Positions 3,041-11,893 of a DNA stretch of 64,000 bases are shown in pieces. This DNA is from an uncultured Roseobacter sp. (lineage in GTDB: Bacteria; Pseudomonadota; Alphaproteobacteria; Rhodobacterales; Rhodobacteraceae). The number at the start of each line of letters is the position of its first letter. The first letter of the stretch is position 1. The stretch lies in contig CANMWT010000009.1 in NCBI GenBank assembly GCA_947501635.1, positions 1 through 64,000 on the forward strand, in the 5' to 3' direction. The notes below the pieces were generated by a model. The model ran no database searches and was not told where the DNA came from. It worked only from the letters and a program-made list of their open reading frames with translations. The translations under genes and the position numbers were made by a program.

Positions 3041-3475
3041 TGGCCGTCCTGCACGGAGACATCACCTATGCAGCGCATCGGTGACGGATCTCAGACAGAC
3101 AGTCCCCCGGGACCGTGGGTAGCTGATTTGGATCCGATCGTAGCGGATCGACGGCGTTGCACGGCGAAACCTCTGGAAACGGATCCAACGCTGCGACTTG
3201 AGAGGCTCCATCAATGGCATAGGCGGTCACACATGCCTGAAATTCCGCTGCGTCTTGCATGAACGGCAGGTTTTCTCTCTGCATTACAACTGATGCCTCG
3301 ATCGAGTGCTTTGTTGCATCTGCGAGAATCGGCAACGGAGCACTTCCGGTATGGGCTCAATGCGGTCATCTGAGTCTTTTTATCGGATGACTGCCCTTCC
3401 GCGCTGAGCGGTCATTGCGATGGCCGATTCCATTCATTGTGGCATCGTGATTCAAGGGCGGCAGGAGGATTGCCG
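3041..3475. other. intergenic before IS transposase
   Basis: No supported gene. It contains the second copy of the 39-bp repeat (3353-3391). An ATGACTGC...AGCGGTCAT imperfect inverted repeat follows at 3387-3415. I could not identify the left terminal inverted repeat of the IS. Confidence 0.45.
3353..3391. repeat. 39-bp dispersed repeat, copy 2
   Basis: Direct copy of 72-110 with 32 of 39 positions identical and no gaps. It lies about 85 bp upstream of the IS transposase start. Confidence 0.6.
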
Positions 3476-4234
3476 ATGTCGCACTTATTCTGGCTCGAGC
3501 ACGTGCACGTGAAACTCATACAGCACTTGTTCCCGAAGCCACGCGGGGTGGCCCGTGTTGATGACCGCAAAGTGCTGAGTGGCATCATCCATGTCATTCG
3601 CAATGGTCTGCGCTGGCGCGATGCTCCTCCTGAGGATGGGTCGAACAAGACGTTTAACAACCAGTGGGCTCGATGGTTCCGAATGGGCGTCTTTGCCCGC
3701 ATTCTGAGCGAACTGGCCGCCGAAGGGGATGCAACAGGCACGCTGATGATCGATACAACCTATCTGAAGGCCCATCGAACAGCTTGCAGCATGGGTCTCA
3801 AGGAAAAGGGGCGTGGTCGCTTGATTGGTCACACCAAGGGCGATTTGAACTCCAAACTGCACGCGGTCACGGATGCTATGGGTCGTCCGGTTTGGTTGTT
3901 TTTGTCAGCGGGAAATGTCAGCGACTACATTGGGGCGAGGGCACTGCTTGCATCTCTGCCTGCTGCCAAATGGATGCTCGCAGATCGCGGTTACGATGCC
4001 GACTGGTTCCGAGAGGGATTGAAAGAAAGGGACATTGAACCCTGTTTTCCATCGCGCCGGAATCGCATCGAAGTCATCCCGCATGACACTATGGCTTACC
4101 GAGCGCGCCATAAAATTGAGAACATGTTCGGACGACTGAAGGACTAGCGCAGGGTCGCGACCCGCTACGATAGATGCCCTATCGTGTTCCTATCTGCCAT
4201 CGCTCTCGCGGCAACAATATTATTTTGGTTATAA
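3476..4234 (+). pseudogene. IS5-family (IS427-like) transposase, interrupted by TAG
   Basis: This is a DDE transposase of the IS5 family. The start at 3476 (MSHLFWL) follows a GGAGG. The catalytic acidic residues lie in LMIDTTYLKAHRT, ADRGYDAD and RHKIENMFGRLKD. At 4145-4147 the frame reads TAG. Reading through it gives RRVATRYDRCPIVF...ATILFWL and a natural TAA at 4232-4234, which is the expected end of this family, where the codon is normally Trp (TGG) in RLKDWRRVATRYDR. A single TGG-to-TAG change therefore removes the last 29 residues or so. The DDE triad is upstream of the stop, so some activity cannot be excluded. The ends of the element were not found. Confidence 0.8.
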
Positions 4235-4458: not shown

Positions 4459-4614
4459 ATGAGCATCAACCCAAATTCAGAAAAAGTATCACTTTCACGT
4501 TTGGAGACCGCCTCAATATTTATAGTATTTGTAATCGCATTAGCGGTTCTCATAACTGCGGCTGGGATAGTACTCAATCAAACGATTATGCCGACCAATG
4601 TCTTGCACTACTAG
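4459..4614 (+). CDS. small single-pass membrane protein (putative)
   Basis: This 51-codon ORF encodes a hydrophilic N-terminus followed by one strong transmembrane segment, about residues 19-39 (SIFIVFVIALAVLITAAGIV). A purine-rich GAGCAGG lies about 9 bases upstream of ATG. Codon use is more A+T-rich than in the surrounding chromosome, as in much of this accessory region. No family is recognised. It sits between the IS remnant and the integrative element, so it could be cargo of either. The hydrophobic pattern supports a real peptide, but an ORF this short could occur by chance. Confidence 0.45.
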   Translation: MSINPNSEKVSLSRLETASIFIVFVIALAVLITAAGIVLNQTIMPTNVLHY

Positions 4615-4707
4615 TGCTCGACAATTCGGAGTGTTTTCAAGTCAGGCGGCGATCGCATGGTTAGGGAACACTCCTCACATGGCTTAACGCATCCAAATCG
4701 AACTTGC

Positions 4708-5355
4708 CTATTCCAGCACTTCCAGAATTGCCTCTCGGTCCTCTTCATTTAGCAAATGCGTAAACTTGCTGATGAAAAGAATGTCCGCTTGGCCCTCGTC
4801 GCGCGCAATCTGCTGACAGTGTCGTTCATATGTCCTTTGCCACATGCCCTTTGGCTTCGGCGCAATGAAATATGCGGTGCCAGGTTCACCACCAAGCGCC
4901 ATGCGGGTATTGTTTGCCCGTCTCAGGGCGCGGTCACATTCCGCTTCTGATTGGCTTCTGTAAGCGAGTGAATAACAGTGGCGACAAAGAAAGTAACGCC
5001 CACCGGCAAACAGCTTTCCCACCCTTCGACCGCAGTGGCGACCATTGACGTAACCGGGACACAGAAAATAGGTGCGCATACCGCCATAGTGACATGCCAC
5101 ATAGGTCAAGGGCACCGTTTCGGTGACGGCCTCCCAATCGTTGCCATGGCACCTGACGCGATAGTTCAGTTTCAGCCCCGCGTCTGTCATGCTGTACCCG
5201 ATGCGCCCAACTTCCTCGCCGTTACTGAACCAAACCCAATTGCCCATCACTCCGACGTTCAGGACGCCCTCGCGCTGCAAACGGTTCACATCAAGTGATT
5301 TGCAATCCTCCGCAATTTGCTTGCGGCCTGTTCGGCCTGAGCCATATCCACCCAT
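4708..5355 (-). CDS. cysteine-rich mobile-element protein (MGGYGSG family)
   Basis: This is a 215-residue protein of unknown function of a type I associate with alphaproteobacterial integrated elements. I chose the start at 5355 (MGGYGSGRTGRKQ) because GGAAGG precedes it. The frame is open upstream to 5469, with a very basic MARRRKRKSRGRK stretch and a weaker AGGA, so a 253-residue form is possible. Cysteines and histidines cluster as ACHYGG, FLCPG, HCGRR and FLCRHCYSLAYRSQ, which looks like a zinc-ribbon nucleic-acid-binding fold. A long charged helical segment follows. It is the most distal of the leftward element genes. Confidence 0.6.
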   Translation of the reverse strand: MGGYGSGRTGRKQIAEDCKSLDVNRLQREGVLNVGVMGNWVWFSNGEEVGRIGYSMTDAGLKLNYRVRCHGNDWEAVTETVPLTYVACHYGGMRTYFLCPGYVNGRHCGRRVGKLFAGGRYFLCRHCYSLAYRSQSEAECDRALRRANNTRMALGGEPGTAYFIAPKPKGMWQRTYERHCQQIARDEGQADILFISKFTHLLNEEDREAILEVLE

Positions 5356-5546
5356 AAAAAACCTTCCAATATTTTCCGAAATCATAAGCAAACTTTTAGA
5401 TGCTTGTGCCGTCTGCTTCAGAACTGCTGATTTGCGGCCACGTGATTTTCGCTTCCTGCGCCGGGCCATATCCTAAAATCATAAGCTCACAGGGGGCTTT
5501 TTGTCCTTGCTCATCTGTTCGTTCCTCTACAGGGGAGTGGTTAGTA

Positions 5547-6059
5547 TTAGTGTTCCGTTTCAGAACCGAAGGAACCCTTGGAAATTGGCCTGACGGGTTC
5601 TGATATGGAACCATGAGCGGCCTTTGGGTTCTCTAGCGGAACCATGGAGAAGGCTGACGGTTCCGTTTCAGAACCGCCTTTTGTTTTTGGAGGCTGCCAG
5701 TCCCGCCACTCGTTCGTAGCAAGCGCCTTTCCTTTCGGGGTCTGTATCGGCTTGGTGGTCAATCGCCATTCATGCGCCCGCCGGTGATACCAGTTGCCTT
5801 CTTTGACAAGGGCGATGAACCCAAGCGCCGTCAATTCTTCATAGGCCCGCTTCACCGTGGCCTTGCCCATGCCCAGCGTTTCACCCGCCTCGGCATAGGA
5901 CAGCGTCAGCTTGCCGTTGTTGCCACCATTGAAGCGCGTGTGCAGCTCCAGCCAAAGTTTTACCGCAGGGCCCGAGAGATTGCGCCATGCCTTGCTCTTC
6001 AACTGGGCGTATGGGAGGGGCACATACTGCCCCTCACTGTGTTTGTTGCTCTTACCCAT
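5547..6059 (-). CDS. winged-helix replication-initiator-like protein with internal palindromes
   Basis: This is a 170-residue protein. The start at 6059 (MGKSNKHSEGQYVPLPYAQLKS) leaves 41 bp to the upstream gene. Residues about 10-110 form a helix-turn-helix/winged-helix domain of the kind found in phage O-like and plasmid replication proteins: KAWRNLSGPAVKLWLELHTRF, then LSYAEAGETLGMGKATVKRAYEELTALGFI. The C-terminal 60 residues are low-complexity, with GSETEP, MVPLENP, GSISEP and GSETEH. These peptides are the translation of four 17-bp DNA palindromes listed separately, so the tail is probably shaped by DNA-level constraint. I infer, without proof, a role in element replication or autoregulation. 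Confidence 0.6.
   Translation of the reverse strand: MGKSNKHSEGQYVPLPYAQLKSKAWRNLSGPAVKLWLELHTRFNGGNNGKLTLSYAEAGETLGMGKATVKRAYEELTALGFIALVKEGNWYHRRAHEWRLTTKPIQTPKGKALATNEWRDWQPPKTKGGSETEPSAFSMVPLENPKAAHGSISEPVRPISKGSFGSETEH
5551..5675. repeat. array of four GGTTC-N7-GAACC palindromes (iteron-like)
   Basis: Four 17-bp sites lie at 5551-5567 (first arm TGTTC), 5596-5612, 5627-5643 and 5659-5675. Each has inverted arms GGTTC and GAACC separated by 7 bases. Start-to-start spacings are 45, 31 and 32 bp. Sites 1, 2 and 4 are read in one codon frame (GSxxEP/H); site 3 at 5627-5643 is read in another (MVPLENP), yet its arms are intact. This pattern resembles initiator iterons placed inside an initiator gene. 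Confidence 0.8.
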
Positions 6060-6100
6060 GGGCACACCACCAAACCGGTGCGTGACAGGTCTGTGCGTCC

Positions 6101-6292
6101 TTATCCATGGTCGAGCCTCCCGTTGCGGGTTTTGAGCGGCTGGACCGAATTGCTGAGCTTGCACCAATGGAACCGTCTTTCGTTTTTCGGTGGCGAAAAG
6201 GGGCCGGATGTGGCATCACCTGTACTTGTGAGGGTGGCAGATGATGTCACTGGAAAAGCCCCGGTTCCGTTAGCGGAGTTGGGGTTTTTCAT
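6101..6292 (-). CDS. small hypothetical protein, translationally coupled
   Basis: This is a 63-codon ORF whose ATG overlaps the TAA stop of the upstream gene (TAATG). That arrangement, and its place between two element genes in the same direction, support translation. The product is Ser/Thr/Asn-rich at the N-terminus and basic at the C-terminus, with no recognised domain. Two degenerate half-sites of the nearby palindrome family (GGTTCC at 6263-6268 and GGAACC at 6169-6174) fall within it. Confidence 0.45.
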   Translation of the reverse strand: MKNPNSANGTGAFPVTSSATLTSTGDATSGPFSPPKNERRFHWCKLSNSVQPLKTRNGRLDHG

Positions 6293-6636
6293 TAGAAATC
6301 CTTCTCATCGTTTTGATTTTGGAAGACTGCAGGGTGCGCGTGGGTACAGGGTGCCGCCAAAGCTTTGTCTGACGATTTCGGCCTCATGGCGCCCATTCTG
6401 TAGCCTTTTGGCACGCAGCCCATGCGCAGCGGCCAGAGCGGGCAATCCGTCTGAACGCATTTGCGCACCTCACTCGGATCCAGAGCGCAATCGAGGCACT
6501 TCGCACGGATCGCGTTCAGCCCTGAGACAAAGGGCCGGTCCCGCCACCCGTCCGGCGGGACACTGCGGGGATCACGGCCAATCAACTGGCCACCATCACT
6601 TTCGAAGGGTGATATCTGGAGCAACGGGTTGGTCAT
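6292..6636 (-). CDS. four-cysteine mobile-element protein
   Basis: This is a 114-residue protein starting at 6636 (MTNPLLQISPF). Its ATG shares one base with the TGA of the upstream AlpA-like gene (TGATG), so the two are coupled. The conserved core is AIRAKCLDCALDPSEVRKCVQTDCPLWPLRMG, with four cysteines in CxxC...C...C arrangement. This suggests a small metal-binding fold. Proteins with this motif recur in alphaproteobacterial prophages and islands, but no function is known to me. Confidence 0.6.
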   Translation of the reverse strand: MTNPLLQISPFESDGGQLIGRDPRSVPPDGWRDRPFVSGLNAIRAKCLDCALDPSEVRKCVQTDCPLWPLRMGCVPKGYRMGAMRPKSSDKALAAPCTHAHPAVFQNQNDEKDF

Positions 6637-6845
6637 CACGCCACCTCCGCGCTGGGATCGGTGCGTTGCGCGGCGAGATAAGCGTTCAGGTCGGTGCCGT
6701 GATAGCCGATACGCCGCCCGATGCGGATGAAGGCAGGCCCCACATTGCGGTGCCGCCATTGTGCCAGTTTTTCAATGCTCCCCAGCACCCGCAGCTCCGG
6801 GTCTTCGGGAAAGTACCTTCGCTCACAGTCGAAGATGTTAGCCAT
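6636..6845 (-). CDS. AlpA/excisionase-like DNA-binding protein
   Basis: This is a 69-residue helix-turn-helix protein. The start at 6845 (MANIFDCERRYF) follows AAGAGG. The sequence PELRVLGSIEKLAQWRHRNVGPAFIRIGRRIGYHGTDLNAYLAAQ matches the MerR-like winged helix of AlpA/Xis-type recombination directionality factors, including the GPAFIRIGRRIGY turn and the terminal helix. It is the first gene of a coupled run and, by position, may direct excision by the neighbouring integrase or regulate the element. Confidence 0.65.
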   Translation of the reverse strand: MANIFDCERRYFPEDPELRVLGSIEKLAQWRHRNVGPAFIRIGRRIGYHGTDLNAYLAAQRTDPSAEVA

Positions 6846-7058
6846 CGTTGAAACCTCTTGGGTTGTTTCGGATGACATCAAAATGCGCTGAACCGTGGCG
6901 CTCGAATATTACCGCAGGTTGCGATTTCTGACACCCAAGCCGCGCTTAAACCCACTCAAGATCGCTATCGCCATCTTGCCGCCACAACCACAAAAACTTT
7001 TAAATTGTTTTATTTTAGTAGCTTAACCTGCCACCGTAGGTAACCTAAACTTCAATAG

Positions 7059-7985
7059 TCAAAATGGTATGTCACTATCTAAATCTCCTTTCGAAGGTTG
7101 GATTTTCTCAAAATTATCTATTTCCATCGGTTCGTTTGTATCGTCATCGTCAAGTTCAACCGAAGTAGGCGTAGCCCCACCCGAGGTTTGCCAGTTGGCA
7201 ATTCTAGCGACCTCTTCTGCCGCAGTTTGTGAAACAACGCCGTCCGAATTGCCCAATCCGAATTGAGTACCATTACTCACCACCCATTCTGACAACGACT
7301 GTTTTACGCTTTTACGTTTGGCCGCTCGATCGACCTTCTCCCAAGCAGCAACCGCCGTGGCGAGTTTTGCGGAATAGCGGGGATGGCTCGGGTCGCGGAA
7401 ACCATCGGACACACCACTAGGAAAAAAGAACAGTGGAAACAAACCACGCTCGCTCAGCCACGCTTTTAGGTCGTCAATTGCAACGGTCGTTTGATCCCAG
7501 TTCGGCTCCTTTAGTATCCATAACTCATCCGCCCCTCTTGCCACTTCGACAGGGCCACCCAAATGAATTAAGGCAGCCGCTGATTTACAGCTTACCAGAT
7601 GATCAAAAACGACAGTTTGTTCTTCGCTGTCTCCAAGTTCTAATTTGACTGTGTGGTATACAGGTTCGCCCATTACACTTAGCTCCGGAGAATAATGGTA
7701 AACTCCTCGCGCCGGATAGCTAACTTTCGCCCGCAGTCGATTGCTCAAAATTGCGCTTCGAAGCGCTTTCAACACAGGCTGTAAGTTGGCGTAGTCTCTT
7801 CGTTGTTTTGTTTTGGGAGAACCGTCGTCATTGTATCGACGCACTCCTTCTTCAGCATCGAAAACATCAATCTGCTCAGAAGGGTTTTCGCCGATTATCA
7901 GTATTGCCGCATCGACAACTGACAGTTCGTCGCAAAGCTTCCAATAGAATAGACCGTCGTCATAGTCGTCATAGCCCCCTGTCAT
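7059..7985 (-). CDS. element protein with SSB-like acidic C-terminal tail
   Basis: This is a 308-residue protein without a recognised catalytic domain. Its start codon lies 17 bp inside the end of the integrase gene, so translation is probably coupled. The N-terminus (YWKLCDELSVVDAAILIIGENPSE) is predicted helical. The centre is mixed alpha/beta, and the last 60 residues are acidic and disordered (VELDDDDTNEPMEIDNFEKI). The final residues GDLDSDIPF closely resemble the conserved DDDIPF peptide that ends bacterial single-stranded DNA-binding protein and recruits repair and replication enzymes. I infer a role linking the element to host replication or recombination proteins. Confidence 0.6.
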   Translation of the reverse strand: MTGGYDDYDDGLFYWKLCDELSVVDAAILIIGENPSEQIDVFDAEEGVRRYNDDGSPKTKQRRDYANLQPVLKALRSAILSNRLRAKVSYPARGVYHYSPELSVMGEPVYHTVKLELGDSEEQTVVFDHLVSCKSAAALIHLGGPVEVARGADELWILKEPNWDQTTVAIDDLKAWLSERGLFPLFFFPSGVSDGFRDPSHPRYSAKLATAVAAWEKVDRAAKRKSVKQSLSEWVVSNGTQFGLGNSDGVVSQTAAEEVARIANWQTSGGATPTSVELDDDDTNEPMEIDNFEKIQPSKGDLDSDIPF

Positions 7986-9156
7986 TCATGGACCTCGCAT
8001 ATCTAGACCACTTCTCCATCAATCCCCGCCGCCGCTCCAACAAATCCGACCGCGCATAGGCCCTTTCCACATCCGAGCCCACCTGATGCGCCAGCGCGGC
8101 CTCCGCCAGTTCGCGCGGCGCGTTCGCTTCCTCTGCCGCCCAATCGCGGAAGGTGCTGCGGAACCCGTGTACGGTATAGCTGTCTTGCTGCATACGTCTC
8201 AGTAACATCAACATAGACATGTTGGACAAGGGCTGGTGTCGTTTCTGCCCCTCAAAGACATACTCCGACGCCATCGCCTGCAAAGGCTCCAGAATGGCCA
8301 GCATTTCGTCTGTGAGCGGTACGCGATGCTCTTTCCCGCCTTTCATGCGCGCGGCAGGCACCATCCACAGGCGCGCGTCCAAATCCACCTCCGGCCATTT
8401 CATCTCCAACACCTCAGACGTGCGGCTGGCTGTCAGGATGGTGAACCGCAGGGCCCGTGCTGCCATCGCGCTGCGCGTCGCCAGATCCGCGTAGAAGGCA
8501 GGCAGGTCACGCCATGGCATTGCATCATGGTGCTGCACCTTGGCTTTGACCTTTGGCAGCACTTTGGCATCACGTATCGCCAACACGGGGTTTTCGCCTG
8601 AGCGGAAGCCTTTCGACTTGGCCACATCCAGCACCGTCTTGATACGCTGCGCCAGACGCTTGGCCGTTTCGTGCTTTTCCGTCCAGATCGGGGCGAGGCA
8701 CATTAGGACTTCAGGCTGGCCGATGCTATCAATCGGCATCCGGCCGATCTTGGGAAAGGCATAGTCGCGTAAGGTGTTCAGCCATTGCTGGCCATGCTTG
8801 GGGTTTTTCCACGTCGGCAGGCGGTCAATGTGCACCTGACGGCTGATCTCCTCAAAGGTCGGGATTTCACGCTGAGCATTAAAGCGCGGGTTTAAGCCTG
8901 TTTTGGCCATCCTGCGATATTCAAGCGCGCGTTCTCTCGCTTGATTGAGCGTGACAATATCCGCGCCACCCAATCCGAAGTCTGTCCTGAGCGGTGCACC
9001 CTTGCGGTTTTTCTGCCCTTTGACGGTCACACGTACAATCCACCGCCGTGCGCCGGATGGATCGACCACAAGATAAAGACCCGCGCCATCACCATGCCGA
9101 CCTGGCCCAAGATTCTCCACCAGCTTTTTTGTGAGCTTACCGCTAAGTGCCGCCAT
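7969..9156 (-). CDS. int: tyrosine recombinase/integrase
   Basis: This is a site-specific integrase of 395 residues in the P4/DUF4102 group. The N-terminal arm-binding domain includes GDGAGLYLVVDPSGARRWIVR. The SAM-like core-binding domain covers about residues 100-190. The catalytic residues are visible as TASRTSEV (Arg), KGGKEHRVPL (Lys), HGFRSTFRDW (His-x-x-Arg), LAHQ (His) and the nucleophile region VERAYARSDL (Tyr). It lies about 150 bp from the 3' end of tRNA-Ser(GGA), the usual attachment target for this group. The matching distal attachment repeat was not found. Confidence 0.9.
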   Translation of the reverse strand: MAALSGKLTKKLVENLGPGRHGDGAGLYLVVDPSGARRWIVRVTVKGQKNRKGAPLRTDFGLGGADIVTLNQARERALEYRRMAKTGLNPRFNAQREIPTFEEISRQVHIDRLPTWKNPKHGQQWLNTLRDYAFPKIGRMPIDSIGQPEVLMCLAPIWTEKHETAKRLAQRIKTVLDVAKSKGFRSGENPVLAIRDAKVLPKVKAKVQHHDAMPWRDLPAFYADLATRSAMAARALRFTILTASRTSEVLEMKWPEVDLDARLWMVPAARMKGGKEHRVPLTDEMLAILEPLQAMASEYVFEGQKRHQPLSNMSMLMLLRRMQQDSYTVHGFRSTFRDWAAEEANAPRELAEAALAHQVGSDVERAYARSDLLERRRGLMEKWSRYARSMNDRGL

Positions 9157-9305
9157 TCAAATATACCACGATCTGTACCACTCAGTGAAAATATACGGGT
9201 ACAATCTGGTAAAAGCCAATAAAAGTCAAACGATCATAAATTCCATAAAAACATAGGATTTATGATGTGATATGCTGCTCGATGAAATGATATGAAATGT
9301 GGTAG

Positions 9306-9395
9306 TGGCGGAGCGACAGGGATTCGAACCCTGGAGACGGTCTCCCGCCTACACACTTTCCAGGCGTGCGCCTTCGACCACTCGGCCACCGCTCC
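9306..9395 (-). tRNA. tRNA-Ser (GGA)
   Basis: The minus strand folds as a class II tRNA of 90 nt with encoded CCA. The acceptor stem GGAGCGG pairs with TCGCTCC, followed by discriminator G. The anticodon loop CTGGAAAG gives GGA, a long variable arm (GGCGGGAGACCGTC) is typical of tRNA-Ser, and the T loop is GGTTCGAATCC. The 3' end points at the integrase, so this is the probable integration target. Confidence 0.95.
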
Positions 9396-9556: not shown

Positions 9557-11893
9557 TCAGGTTTCGTCCTGACCGGGCCGTCCGGGCTGCAGCGTCTCTG
9601 GATTGCGCAACCACACGTCGCGCTGCGCAAAGGGAATCTCAATGCCCTCATCGGCAAACCGGGCGGCGATTTCATGGTTGATGTCGTTCTTGACCGACAG
9701 CATCCAGTTTACATCCCGCAAAATCGCCCTGATTTCGAAGTCCAGTGAATCCGCACCAAATCCGGCAAAGACAATCGTCGGCGGCGGGTTGTGCATGACC
9801 ATTGGCTGCGCCTCGGCAATTTCGCGCAAAATTCCATCAACCTTTTTGGTGTCGGTCCCGTAAGCCACACCCACCTGAACAATCAGCCGCCCGATGGTGT
9901 TGCCGCGCGTGTAATTGGTGACGGTGCCGGAAATCAGATCAGAATTGGGAACGATGACATCCGTTCTGTCGAACGTCTCGATACGCGTGGAGCGAACGGA
10001 AATATCTTTGACATACCCCATCTGACCGCCCACTTCGATCCAGTCTCCTTCAGAGATCGGCCGCTCGACCAGCAGAATGATACCGGAGACAAAGTTCGAC
10101 ACGATGGTCTGCAGACCAAAGCCGATCCCGACCGAGAGCGCCCCCGCCACCAGAGCAAAGCCCGACAGGTCAAGCCCCGCCACGGTGACAGCCACGATGG
10201 CGGCCAGAAAAATCCCCACATAGCCCAGACCGGAGACAAGCGCATTCTGCCCGCCAATGTCGATACTGGTCTTTGGCAAGACGTTCTGGCGCAGCGTCGA
10301 TTGCAGCAAGCGGGTGATTGTGTATCCCACAACAAACACGATCGCAAAGACCATGAAATTAGCCGGTGAGATACGCGTCCCACCGATTTCGAAACCCTCA
10401 AGGAACTGCGTCCAAAGCTCTGTCAGGTCCGCCATCCGCGCGCCCCAGATCAAAGCCGCCAACGGCAAGGCCGCGAGGACAAGCAAGAACCCCATGAGGA
10501 TCGCAGCCAACCCGTCGCGGGCCTCGACCCCCTGATGGGTCACAAGCCCGTATACATCCGCAAAAAAGCGCTGCAAGACAAGTACCAGACCAAACAGAAC
10601 AAGACTAAGTACGGTAGGATACAACAGTGCATTGCCCGCTTCGGCATAGCCGATCCCCGCCATCACCGGTGCCGCGACACTGACCCCGATCATGAAGTTT
10701 CCGGCAAACCGAATAACGCGCGGCAGACCTGTGTTTTGCTGATCATCCGGTGCGTCCCCAGCACCGGCAATTTTGTAGGTGCGCAGCAAAACCCCAATCA
10801 AAAAAAGCACAATGCCCATCAACACGACAACAGGGAAGGCGACGATGGCAATCGTCTCGGGCAGCGTGTTTTCAAGTTCGAACACCACCGACAGAAAGCC
10901 GCGCGTCACAAACAAAAGCGATAGCAAAAACATGTAAAAGCGTGCTGCAGTGCGCTTTTCTTTTGGCAAAGGCAAAAGAGCTTCGTGCTCGTTGCGCGAA
11001 AACAGACGCTCTGCCAACCACCGGAATACTACGATTACGCCCGCCCAGATCGGCAGCAGGGTCAGGATATCTTCGACCTTGTCGCTCAGGATACCAGTCT
11101 GGCGAATGGCGTAGGCCAGAATGTACACGCCGATCAGCGGCAGAATGATCCGCAAGAGCGAGACCAGAAAACTCCACACGCCAGAACCACGACCGCCGAA
11201 TGCGCGCATATACTCAATCGCATTCATTGCCCATTTACGCCCCTTCACGATGAAGGTCAGCGCAACCAAGGTCAGGAAAATCACCAAAGGCAGCTGATCT
11301 TGAAGCCTTTCTGTACGACGCTCGTCTGAAAAGCTTGCAACGCTGGTGCGCAAGTCTTGCACGATGCGCCCCATGTCTGTCACACCGGCAGGCCAGTTGC
11401 GGGGGTCCAGCGGAGACGGACCTAACGACAACAGCCTGTTTGCATTGCGTTCGCGGATGATGCTGTCGATTTCGCCGATCAGACCATCTGCCCGTTCAAA
11501 GGCTGCATCGGCCACACGTACCGGGCCAAGAAAAGTGTCCAGCTCCGCTTCCAGGTCCGCACGTTTCGCAGTGATCTCCGGTGGCTCTATGCCACTTTCC
11601 GGAATTTCGCCCAGTGCCGTGATCTGCGAGCGCAAATTGCCGATCCGGTCCGCATTCGCGTTGCGTTCCTTTCCGAATTCATTGCGGAAACTCGCCAACC
11701 GCGACCGCAACACCTCAAGATCATCCGTGGTGCTGTTTTCAGCGTTATCGATTGCCAGTTCAGCGTTTTCGGCAACTTCTTCCCAGAACGGGTAAAGTGG
11801 ATCATCGCCAGATCTCGGCGTTTCCTGAGCCAAAGACAAGGCGGCGCAACACACCAAGAGCGTCGCAAGAAAAATGGCGCGAAGTGCGCTCAT
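9557..11893 (-). CDS. large MscS-family mechanosensitive channel (DUF3772)
   Basis: This is a 778-residue inner-membrane protein. An N-terminal signal peptide (ending near LSLAQE) precedes a periplasmic DUF3772 coiled region, about residues 30-190. About ten hydrophobic segments follow, ending in the MscS pore and beta domains: GFALVAGALSVGIGFGLQTIVSNFVSGIILLVERPISEGDWIEVGGQMGYVKDISVRSTRI. The glycine/alanine-rich pore helix and the FERPI-like motif are intact. It should release osmolytes on hypo-osmotic shock. Its ATG overlaps the cysK stop (TAATG), making it the last gene of the trgA-trgB-cysK run. Confidence 0.9.
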   Translation of the reverse strand: MSALRAIFLATLLVCCAALSLAQETPRSGDDPLYPFWEEVAENAELAIDNAENSTTDDLEVLRSRLASFRNEFGKERNANADRIGNLRSQITALGEIPESGIEPPEITAKRADLEAELDTFLGPVRVADAAFERADGLIGEIDSIIRERNANRLLSLGPSPLDPRNWPAGVTDMGRIVQDLRTSVASFSDERRTERLQDQLPLVIFLTLVALTFIVKGRKWAMNAIEYMRAFGGRGSGVWSFLVSLLRIILPLIGVYILAYAIRQTGILSDKVEDILTLLPIWAGVIVVFRWLAERLFSRNEHEALLPLPKEKRTAARFYMFLLSLLFVTRGFLSVVFELENTLPETIAIVAFPVVVLMGIVLFLIGVLLRTYKIAGAGDAPDDQQNTGLPRVIRFAGNFMIGVSVAAPVMAGIGYAEAGNALLYPTVLSLVLFGLVLVLQRFFADVYGLVTHQGVEARDGLAAILMGFLLVLAALPLAALIWGARMADLTELWTQFLEGFEIGGTRISPANFMVFAIVFVVGYTITRLLQSTLRQNVLPKTSIDIGGQNALVSGLGYVGIFLAAIVAVTVAGLDLSGFALVAGALSVGIGFGLQTIVSNFVSGIILLVERPISEGDWIEVGGQMGYVKDISVRSTRIETFDRTDVIVPNSDLISGTVTNYTRGNTIGRLIVQVGVAYGTDTKKVDGILREIAEAQPMVMHNPPPTIVFAGFGADSLDFEIRAILRDVNWMLSVKNDINHEIAARFADEGIEIPFAQRDVWLRNPETLQPGRPGQDET

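Follow-up and report, generated by a model that had tools for sequence, protein, structure and literature searches.

The window analysed here comprises positions 1 to 64,000 of contig CANMWT010000009.1 (64,000 nucleotides) from an uncultured Roseobacter sp. (assembly GCA_947501635.1). An initiator-like protein, P0001, is encoded here by a gene whose 3' end carries, at 5551-5675, four 17-bp sites of the form GGTTC-N7-GAACC, one of which has TGTTC as an arm. These sites probably form an iteron array that is bound by P0001 and most likely serves as the replication origin of a small, tRNA-linked integrative element. The kind of arrangement is already known from the lambda ori in O and the pSK41 ori in rep; the new features are that P0001 has no recognisable C-terminal domain and that the array can leave the gene. 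No paper listed in the literature searches was recognised as a description of this array or of these elements.

The four sites would be iterons bound by the winged-helix initiator P0001, which is encoded by the same gene. The origin would consist of the sites, an A-rich box before site 1 and an AT-rich CTAATACTAACC box after site 4. After excision, P0001 might bind the array in dimeric or higher oligomeric form; the bound protein would bend the DNA and open one of the AT boxes, and replication proteins might be recruited from the host or a helper phage. We infer self-binding of P0001, origin activity, excision and helper dependence; it is similarity that suggests P0001 as the initiator.

The coordinates confirmed the four sites and their spacings as originally predicted (45, 31 and 32 bp along the window; 32, 31 and 45 bp from start to start in gene order, sites 1 to 4). 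On the window strand, the site at 5551-5567 reads TGTTCCGTTTCAGAACC (one mismatch), and the other three are exact (Table 1). Translation agreed with the earlier claim that the 5627-5643 site lies in a different codon frame: it gives MVPLENP, and the other three give GSETEP, GSISEP and GSETEH. The site centres lack symmetry: those of sites 1 and 4 are mostly TGAnnYG, and those of sites 2 and 3 are approximately its reverse. On this basis the array was read as -> <- <- ->. The exact pattern occurs six times in the 4.21-Mb genome, three of them in the array, and a reversed control pattern occurs once. With two mismatches allowed, the window holds 28 sites against 28.7 expected; this relaxed pattern shows no enrichment, so what stands out is the clustering of exact sites.

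Conservation of the array in relatives

Homologues of the P0001 gene were collected from genome contigs (9 loci), from 8 of 99 genomes (own genome included) and from 49 of 394 genomes of the same family at E≤1e-8; 13 of these 49 have a homologue at E≤8.2e-42, again with the own genome included. The named relatives are Ruegeria and related bacteria. Twenty array regions align nearly gap-free, and the sequence, order and spacing of the sites are kept; the sole spacing change is one additional base between sites 3 and 4 in L016. The array is conserved as DNA, with fixed order, fixed orientation (-> <- <- ->) and near-constant spacing. The original prediction had expected the sites to persist in homologues, and they do. 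None of the refutation tests that could be run on sequence refuted its reading, and these comparisons support its interpretation.

Codon analysis of 19 homologues showed a synonymous identity of 0.851 for the 10 codons that end in an arm, compared with 0.465 for the gene body. The arm positions therefore drift far less than the gene body, in line with the earlier claim that DNA rather than protein is conserved. Identity is 1.00 at codons 125-128, in the A-rich box (AAAAACAAAA) by site 1. The 23 tail codons outside the sites are mixed (0.759, median 0.64): flanks such as CCCGTC are frozen, and the linkers between drift freely. Because such flanks are frozen too, the arm codons exceed the other tail codons only marginally (p 0.052). 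The codon count leaves out L012 (frameshifted), L013, L017, L034, L035 and L134-L137; alignment A2 leaves out L013, L017, L034, L035 and the duplicate L026, and alignment A3 leaves out L007, L012, L013, L017, L034, L136 and L137.

The sites also outlast stop codons. In 5 of the 20 rows (L009, L010, L015, L016 and L031) the frame stops ahead of one or two sites, and the sites persist. Past the premature stops, the arms agree with the consensus, which includes these five rows themselves, at 70 of 79 letters, and the remaining DNA does so at 105 of 168. The AT-rich box CTAATACTAACCACTC is likewise retained in relatives whose frame stops earlier. Two relatives, L034 from the same family and L135 from another family of the class, have a gene that stops once the core is complete, and there the noncoding DNA beyond it carries the array at almost unchanged spacing. 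None of the 20 aligned rows has sites 1 and 2 in a common frame.

An overlapping reading frame was rejected as the cause of the synonymous conservation. The +1 frame is stop-free across the array in 15 of the 20 rows, an openness that by itself would allow such a frame, but it is closed in the window, L012, L015, L023 and L029, and freezing is confined to the sites with their flanks, linker codons 136, 138 and 160-164 scoring 0.18-0.36.

The arms vary in some relatives. The arms of L010 read CGTCC/GGACC (site 2) and GGTCC/GGACA (site 4). A GGGTC arm is found at sites 2 and 3 in L027, L029, L031 and L032, and at site 3 in L010 and L016. In alignment A2, L031 and L032 have one new half-site (GGGTACTC) in both outer sites, 1 and 4, and a different one (GGGTCC) in both inner sites, 2 and 3, a pattern that looks like two classes of site.

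The initiator-like protein and the distribution of the array

The search of P0001 against PHROG identified two O-like/DnaD-like initiator families, phrog_186 (1.7e-6) and phrog_345 (1.3e-4), which were matched by 8/8 and 6/8 of the family members searched. In Pfam, P0001 has no RepA_N match at E≤1, and the best match is HTH_36 (0.041). The solved folds closest to the predicted structure are 4pta, 4pt7, 5kbj and 4pql, all weak matches to RepA_N/DnaD initiators; 4pql is presumably a RepA structure of the RepA_N type. Residues 115-170, largely encoded by the array, have a pLDDT below 50, and no folded C-terminal domain is predicted. The remaining three folds are given as RepA structures of the RepA_N type in excerpts of PMC7145576. 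P0001 is thus a probable phage O-like/DnaD-like initiator whose modelled fold lies weakly near the RepA_N/DnaD initiators, and the earlier assignment to a winged-helix O/Rep type agrees with both sets of matches.

Residue 69 lies in the putative recognition helix. Of the 16 rows with V at this position, 13 carry GGTTC as the left arm of site 3; of the 10 rows with A or I, none does (Fisher p 1e-4, a value that ignores relatedness, with arms judged by eye and a label that needs three changes on the tree). This protein-site co-variation is suggestive at most.

Among the 394 family genomes, the exact two-site pattern was found in 4, all at P0001 homologues, and the reversed control in 1. A sequence-only model of the array, R1, matched 17 of the 394 at E≤0.01. 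Twelve of these match at E≤2.8e-12, all at the 3' end of close homologues; 11 of the 12 belong to the alignment of the model itself, and G375 does not. A thirteenth close homologue, in G147, is cut short and has no R1 match. Of the five weakest genomes, two were opened (L150 and L151) and contain decayed arrays without a P0001 gene; the others are G145, G259 and G115. The L150 array (6983-7129) lies beside a homologue of P0002, the gene that follows the array in the window, with transposase-like ORFs upstream. The L151 array (4016-4133) lies near a tRNA-Arg gene, and no homologue of the P0001 gene was found there. Both are likely relics of the element. At the distant homologues (L018-L022 and L036-L051; 21 loci in 20 places), no array match was obtained; therefore the array belongs to a subfamily. 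A de novo search of distant homologues for exactly repeated palindromes also found no such array, with one two-copy pair in L048.

The IMG/VR viral contigs were scanned for two GGTTC-N7-GAACC sites 10-40 bp apart, and 27 stretches were identified, partly non-independent (L083, L090 and L092, for example, are alike). For each stretch one ORF was compared with PHROGs, namely the longest one overlapping the array or, in L099, an adjoining ORF that matches the P0001 profile. The ORFs of 14 of the 27 stretches match a replication-initiation, DnaD-like or O-like PHROG at E≤1e-3 (L082, L083, L085, L086, L088-L092, L096, L097, L099, L105 and L106), the match of L097 being just 2.6e-5. The array lies in the initiator-like gene in 13 stretches and beside it in 1. 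The 13 initiator-negative stretches are L081 (portal gene), L084, L087, L093, L094, L095, L098, L100-L104 and L107. A reversed palindrome, a small control, gave 4 stretches, 0/4 with an initiator. With one mismatch allowed, 10 of the 14 initiator stretches have sites in two or more codon phases of the scanned ORF; the exceptions are L082, L085, L091 and L106. No P0001 relative was found by a peptide-pattern search of viral contigs, and phages and plasmids each gave one weak relative. The 3'-box pattern occurs in 11 viral stretches, with no array seen and no match to the protein profile.

L082 contains an O-like gene at 1-954 with four perfect 17-bp sites (three GGTTCCCACGCGGAACC, one reversed) that encode GSHAEP/GSAWEP repeats; the C-terminus of the O-like protein matches HNH-type PHROGs. 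L082 resembles a phage or a capsid-bearing element, judging by its ORFs of terminase, capsid, portal and integrase type.

Alternative explanations for the array

The main rival remains an operator or autoregulatory role, the latter also named in the original prediction, in which P0001 at the sites would regulate its own operon or the next gene without origin function. This is unlikely, although it deserves some weight. Autoregulation is common among HTH proteins. The next ATG lies about 35 bp past site 4 in L005, L006, L007, L023 and L025, the next gene varies between elements, and TAATAC past site 4 could be a -10 element. However, a scan covering sigma-70-like promoters found none at the array; the sole match in 4600-7000 is at 5507-5478, beyond the array, with 1.2 expected. 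Three of the sites are within the coding part at near-constant spacing, and no site with up to two mismatches occurs from the array to position 10749, hence none upstream of the gene. A partition site, a satellite packaging site or an accessory excision site appears less probable still. The element is small, tRNA-linked and satellite-like, and TubR (3m8f), which acts in partition, appears as a weak fold match at rank 43. Nevertheless, strong array matches were found only with an initiator-like gene, and the distances from the array to int and to the tRNA gene are about 2.3 and 3.6 kb. The occurrence of the same motif inside initiator genes of viral phage contigs counts against this role and against the operator.

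RNA hairpins with a 5-bp stem and a 7-nt loop, acting as attenuator, antiterminator or terminator, are very improbable. In the alignment 80.3% of the arm-pair cells are able to pair, and on the opposite strand site 1 with T-rich DNA (5658-5676) scores terminator-like, in a scan with 6 such sites in 2.4 kb against 2.9 expected. The covariation is no better than in shuffles (0.028 vs 0.026; 170 of 500 shuffles as high), and on this ground the hairpins were rejected. RNAalifold on the coding strand did not pick four local hairpins (covariation term 0.08), and Rfam in 4200-9400 matches the tRNA only. Selection on a GSxxEP peptide repeat, with the DNA pattern as a by-product, has next to no probability. 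Three of the four sites do encode GSxxEP/H, and close relatives keep the tail peptide fairly well. This explanation is refuted by the stop codons ahead of the sites and the nearly frozen synonymous positions at them; the constant frame difference between sites 1 and 2 and the noncoding arrays also contradict it.

The earlier interpretation has several weak points. All five arm pairs are complementary in just 22 of the 80 site-rows of relatives (2, 9, 11 and 0 of 20 rows for sites 1-4). The earlier claim of intact arms thus holds for the window and close kin but not for the whole family. Perfect symmetry is rare because site 1 mostly ends in GACCC and site 4 in A (or G). Helical phasing, also claimed earlier, is partial: a spacing of 31-32 bp corresponds to about three turns, one of 45 bp to about 4.3. 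The location inside the gene holds for the window, but the array is wholly outside in L034 and L135 and partly outside in 5 of the 20 rows. Moreover, the far att site or end of the element was not found in the window, which is among the 10 of 14 loci tested without flanking repeats.

The integrated element and its relation to known systems

Beside tRNA-Ser, the gene order is int, an int-overlapping gene, an AlpA-like gene, a small ORF, the initiator gene with the array, and then a variable gene (Table 1).

Table 1. Features of the integrated element and its array in the window.
Feature	Positions	Strand	Description
Site 4	5551..5567	minus	GGTTC-TGAAACG-GAACA (coding strand); orientation ->; codon frame 0; adjoins stop codon
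Site 3	5596..5612	minus	GGTTC-CATATCA-GAACC; orientation <-; codon frame 0
Site 2	5627..5643	minus	GGTTC-CGCTAGA-GAACC; orientation <-; codon frame differs from other sites (VPLENP)
Site 1	5659..5675	minus	GGTTC-TGAAACG-GAACC; orientation ->; codon frame 0
AT-rich box CTAATACTAACCACTC	5535..5550	minus	conserved, adjoins site 4; first TAA is the stop codon
A-rich box AAAAACAAAA	5679..5688	minus	conserved, adjoins site 1
P0001 gene	5547..6059	minus	170 aa, winged-helix, initiator-like; array in 3' end; PHROG DnaD-like and O-like matches
Winged-helix domain of P0001	5748..6011	minus	about residues 17-104; predicted structure, closest folds
P0002	4708..5469	minus	after array; cysteine-rich, MGGYGSGR type; may start at internal ATG near 5355
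P0007	6101..6292	minus	small conserved ORF between AlpA-like gene and initiator; tblastn homologues
AlpA-like HTH_17 gene	6636..6881	minus	Pfam HTH_17, E 0.0014, under curated cut-off
P0006	7059..7985	minus	overlaps int by 17 nt; no assigned function
Tyrosine integrase	7969..9156	minus	Pfam Phage_integrase, 3.6e-17
tRNA-Ser (gga)	9306..9395	minus	int side of element

Similarity to four relatives breaks off at 9292-9306, the 3' end of tRNA-Ser, and relatives sit near tRNA-Ser, Arg, Ala or Met genes. In 4 of the 14 loci tested (L061, L063, L066 and L068), direct repeats of 14-15 bp bound about 4.6, 7.2, 8.3 and 7.1 kb, respectively. The failure to find the far att site may be due to a transposase-like ORF that was read at 3437-4147, left of the element. 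The AlpA-like gene probably encodes an excisionase or regulator, judging from its domain match. P0006 has only a chance-level Pfam match (E 0.089) and none in further family searches. P0002 homologues occur in L013, L062, L066, L068 and L150. In other elements, the post-array gene encodes about 170-280 aa as called, often accompanied by a cysteine/histidine protein of CRMHGA type (about 90-115 aa). No Pfam match was found for representatives of the post-array proteins (P0002 type and alternatives). L065 (gene-relative +1503..+2671) and L066 (+1332..+5164) have a common gene pair after the initiator region that may be defence cargo, to judge from the ORFs. The Pfam scan of six window proteins found no primase.

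The array resembles the lambda ori, where excerpts of PMC6022878 describe four iterons with 18-bp inverted repeats inside gene O. Both have four inverted-repeat sites of about 17-18 bp inside the gene of an initiator, known for lambda (PMC6022878) and probable here, and O-like families match P0001. In lambda, a 39-bp AT-rich region lies by the iterons and O works with P, according to the same excerpts (PMC6022878). The present array differs in its two short AT boxes, its 45/31/32 spacing and its position at the extreme 3' end, and neither a partner nor a C-terminal domain was recognised. No long AT-rich unwinding region was found by the sites; only two short stretches reach 60% AT in 15-column windows.

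In pSK41, four Rep boxes inside rep are bound by the N-terminal domain, and the segment encoded by the ori is a dispensable linker (PMC5703833, in part). P0001 similarly has a predicted winged-helix domain in its N-terminal part, four sites in the gene and a protein segment encoded by the candidate origin. However, the pSK41 ori is central in rep (PMC5703833, same part), whereas the P0001 array is terminal and lies outside the gene in some relatives. Unlike the RepA_N initiators, P0001 has neither a Pfam RepA_N match nor a C-terminal domain of the primase-binding type.

Among satellites, replication of the Vibrio cholerae PLE is driven by a RepA_N-like initiator, RepA, is tied to a noncoding region, and goes with a large serine recombinase as integrase, as far as the excerpts of PMC7145576 extend; the integrase here is a tyrosine integrase. 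The PICMI elements of Vibrionaceae are more similar in layout, being small, with int, often an int-overlapping gene, alpA, often a small gene, and a replication gene (excerpts of PMC10803314). PICMIs carry int, alpA and a primase, and the prototype is integrated at fis (PMC10803314, same excerpts). The present element has the integrase, a weak AlpA-like HTH_17 match and the int-overlapping P0006, but a winged-helix initiator stands in the place of the primase and the elements sit near tRNA genes, here with tRNA-Ser beside int.

A broader reading is offered tentatively, as possible but doubtful. These elements might represent a minimal alphaproteobacterial satellite family with a one-domain winged-helix initiator that has no loader domain. 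Its tail would be present only because the origin is transcribed and translated, the origin would slide between coding and noncoding DNA, and a helper phage or the host replisome would supply the rest. Such a family was not found in the literature searched.

In summary, the array and P0001 provide candidates for the origin and the initiator of the small integrative elements found in Ruegeria and related bacteria. The probable origin DNA constrains the protein tail, and relatives with stop codons naturally separate the two roles. Paired GGTTC-N7-GAACC sites inside O/DnaD-like genes might be a possible signature for locating phage and satellite origins from sequence.
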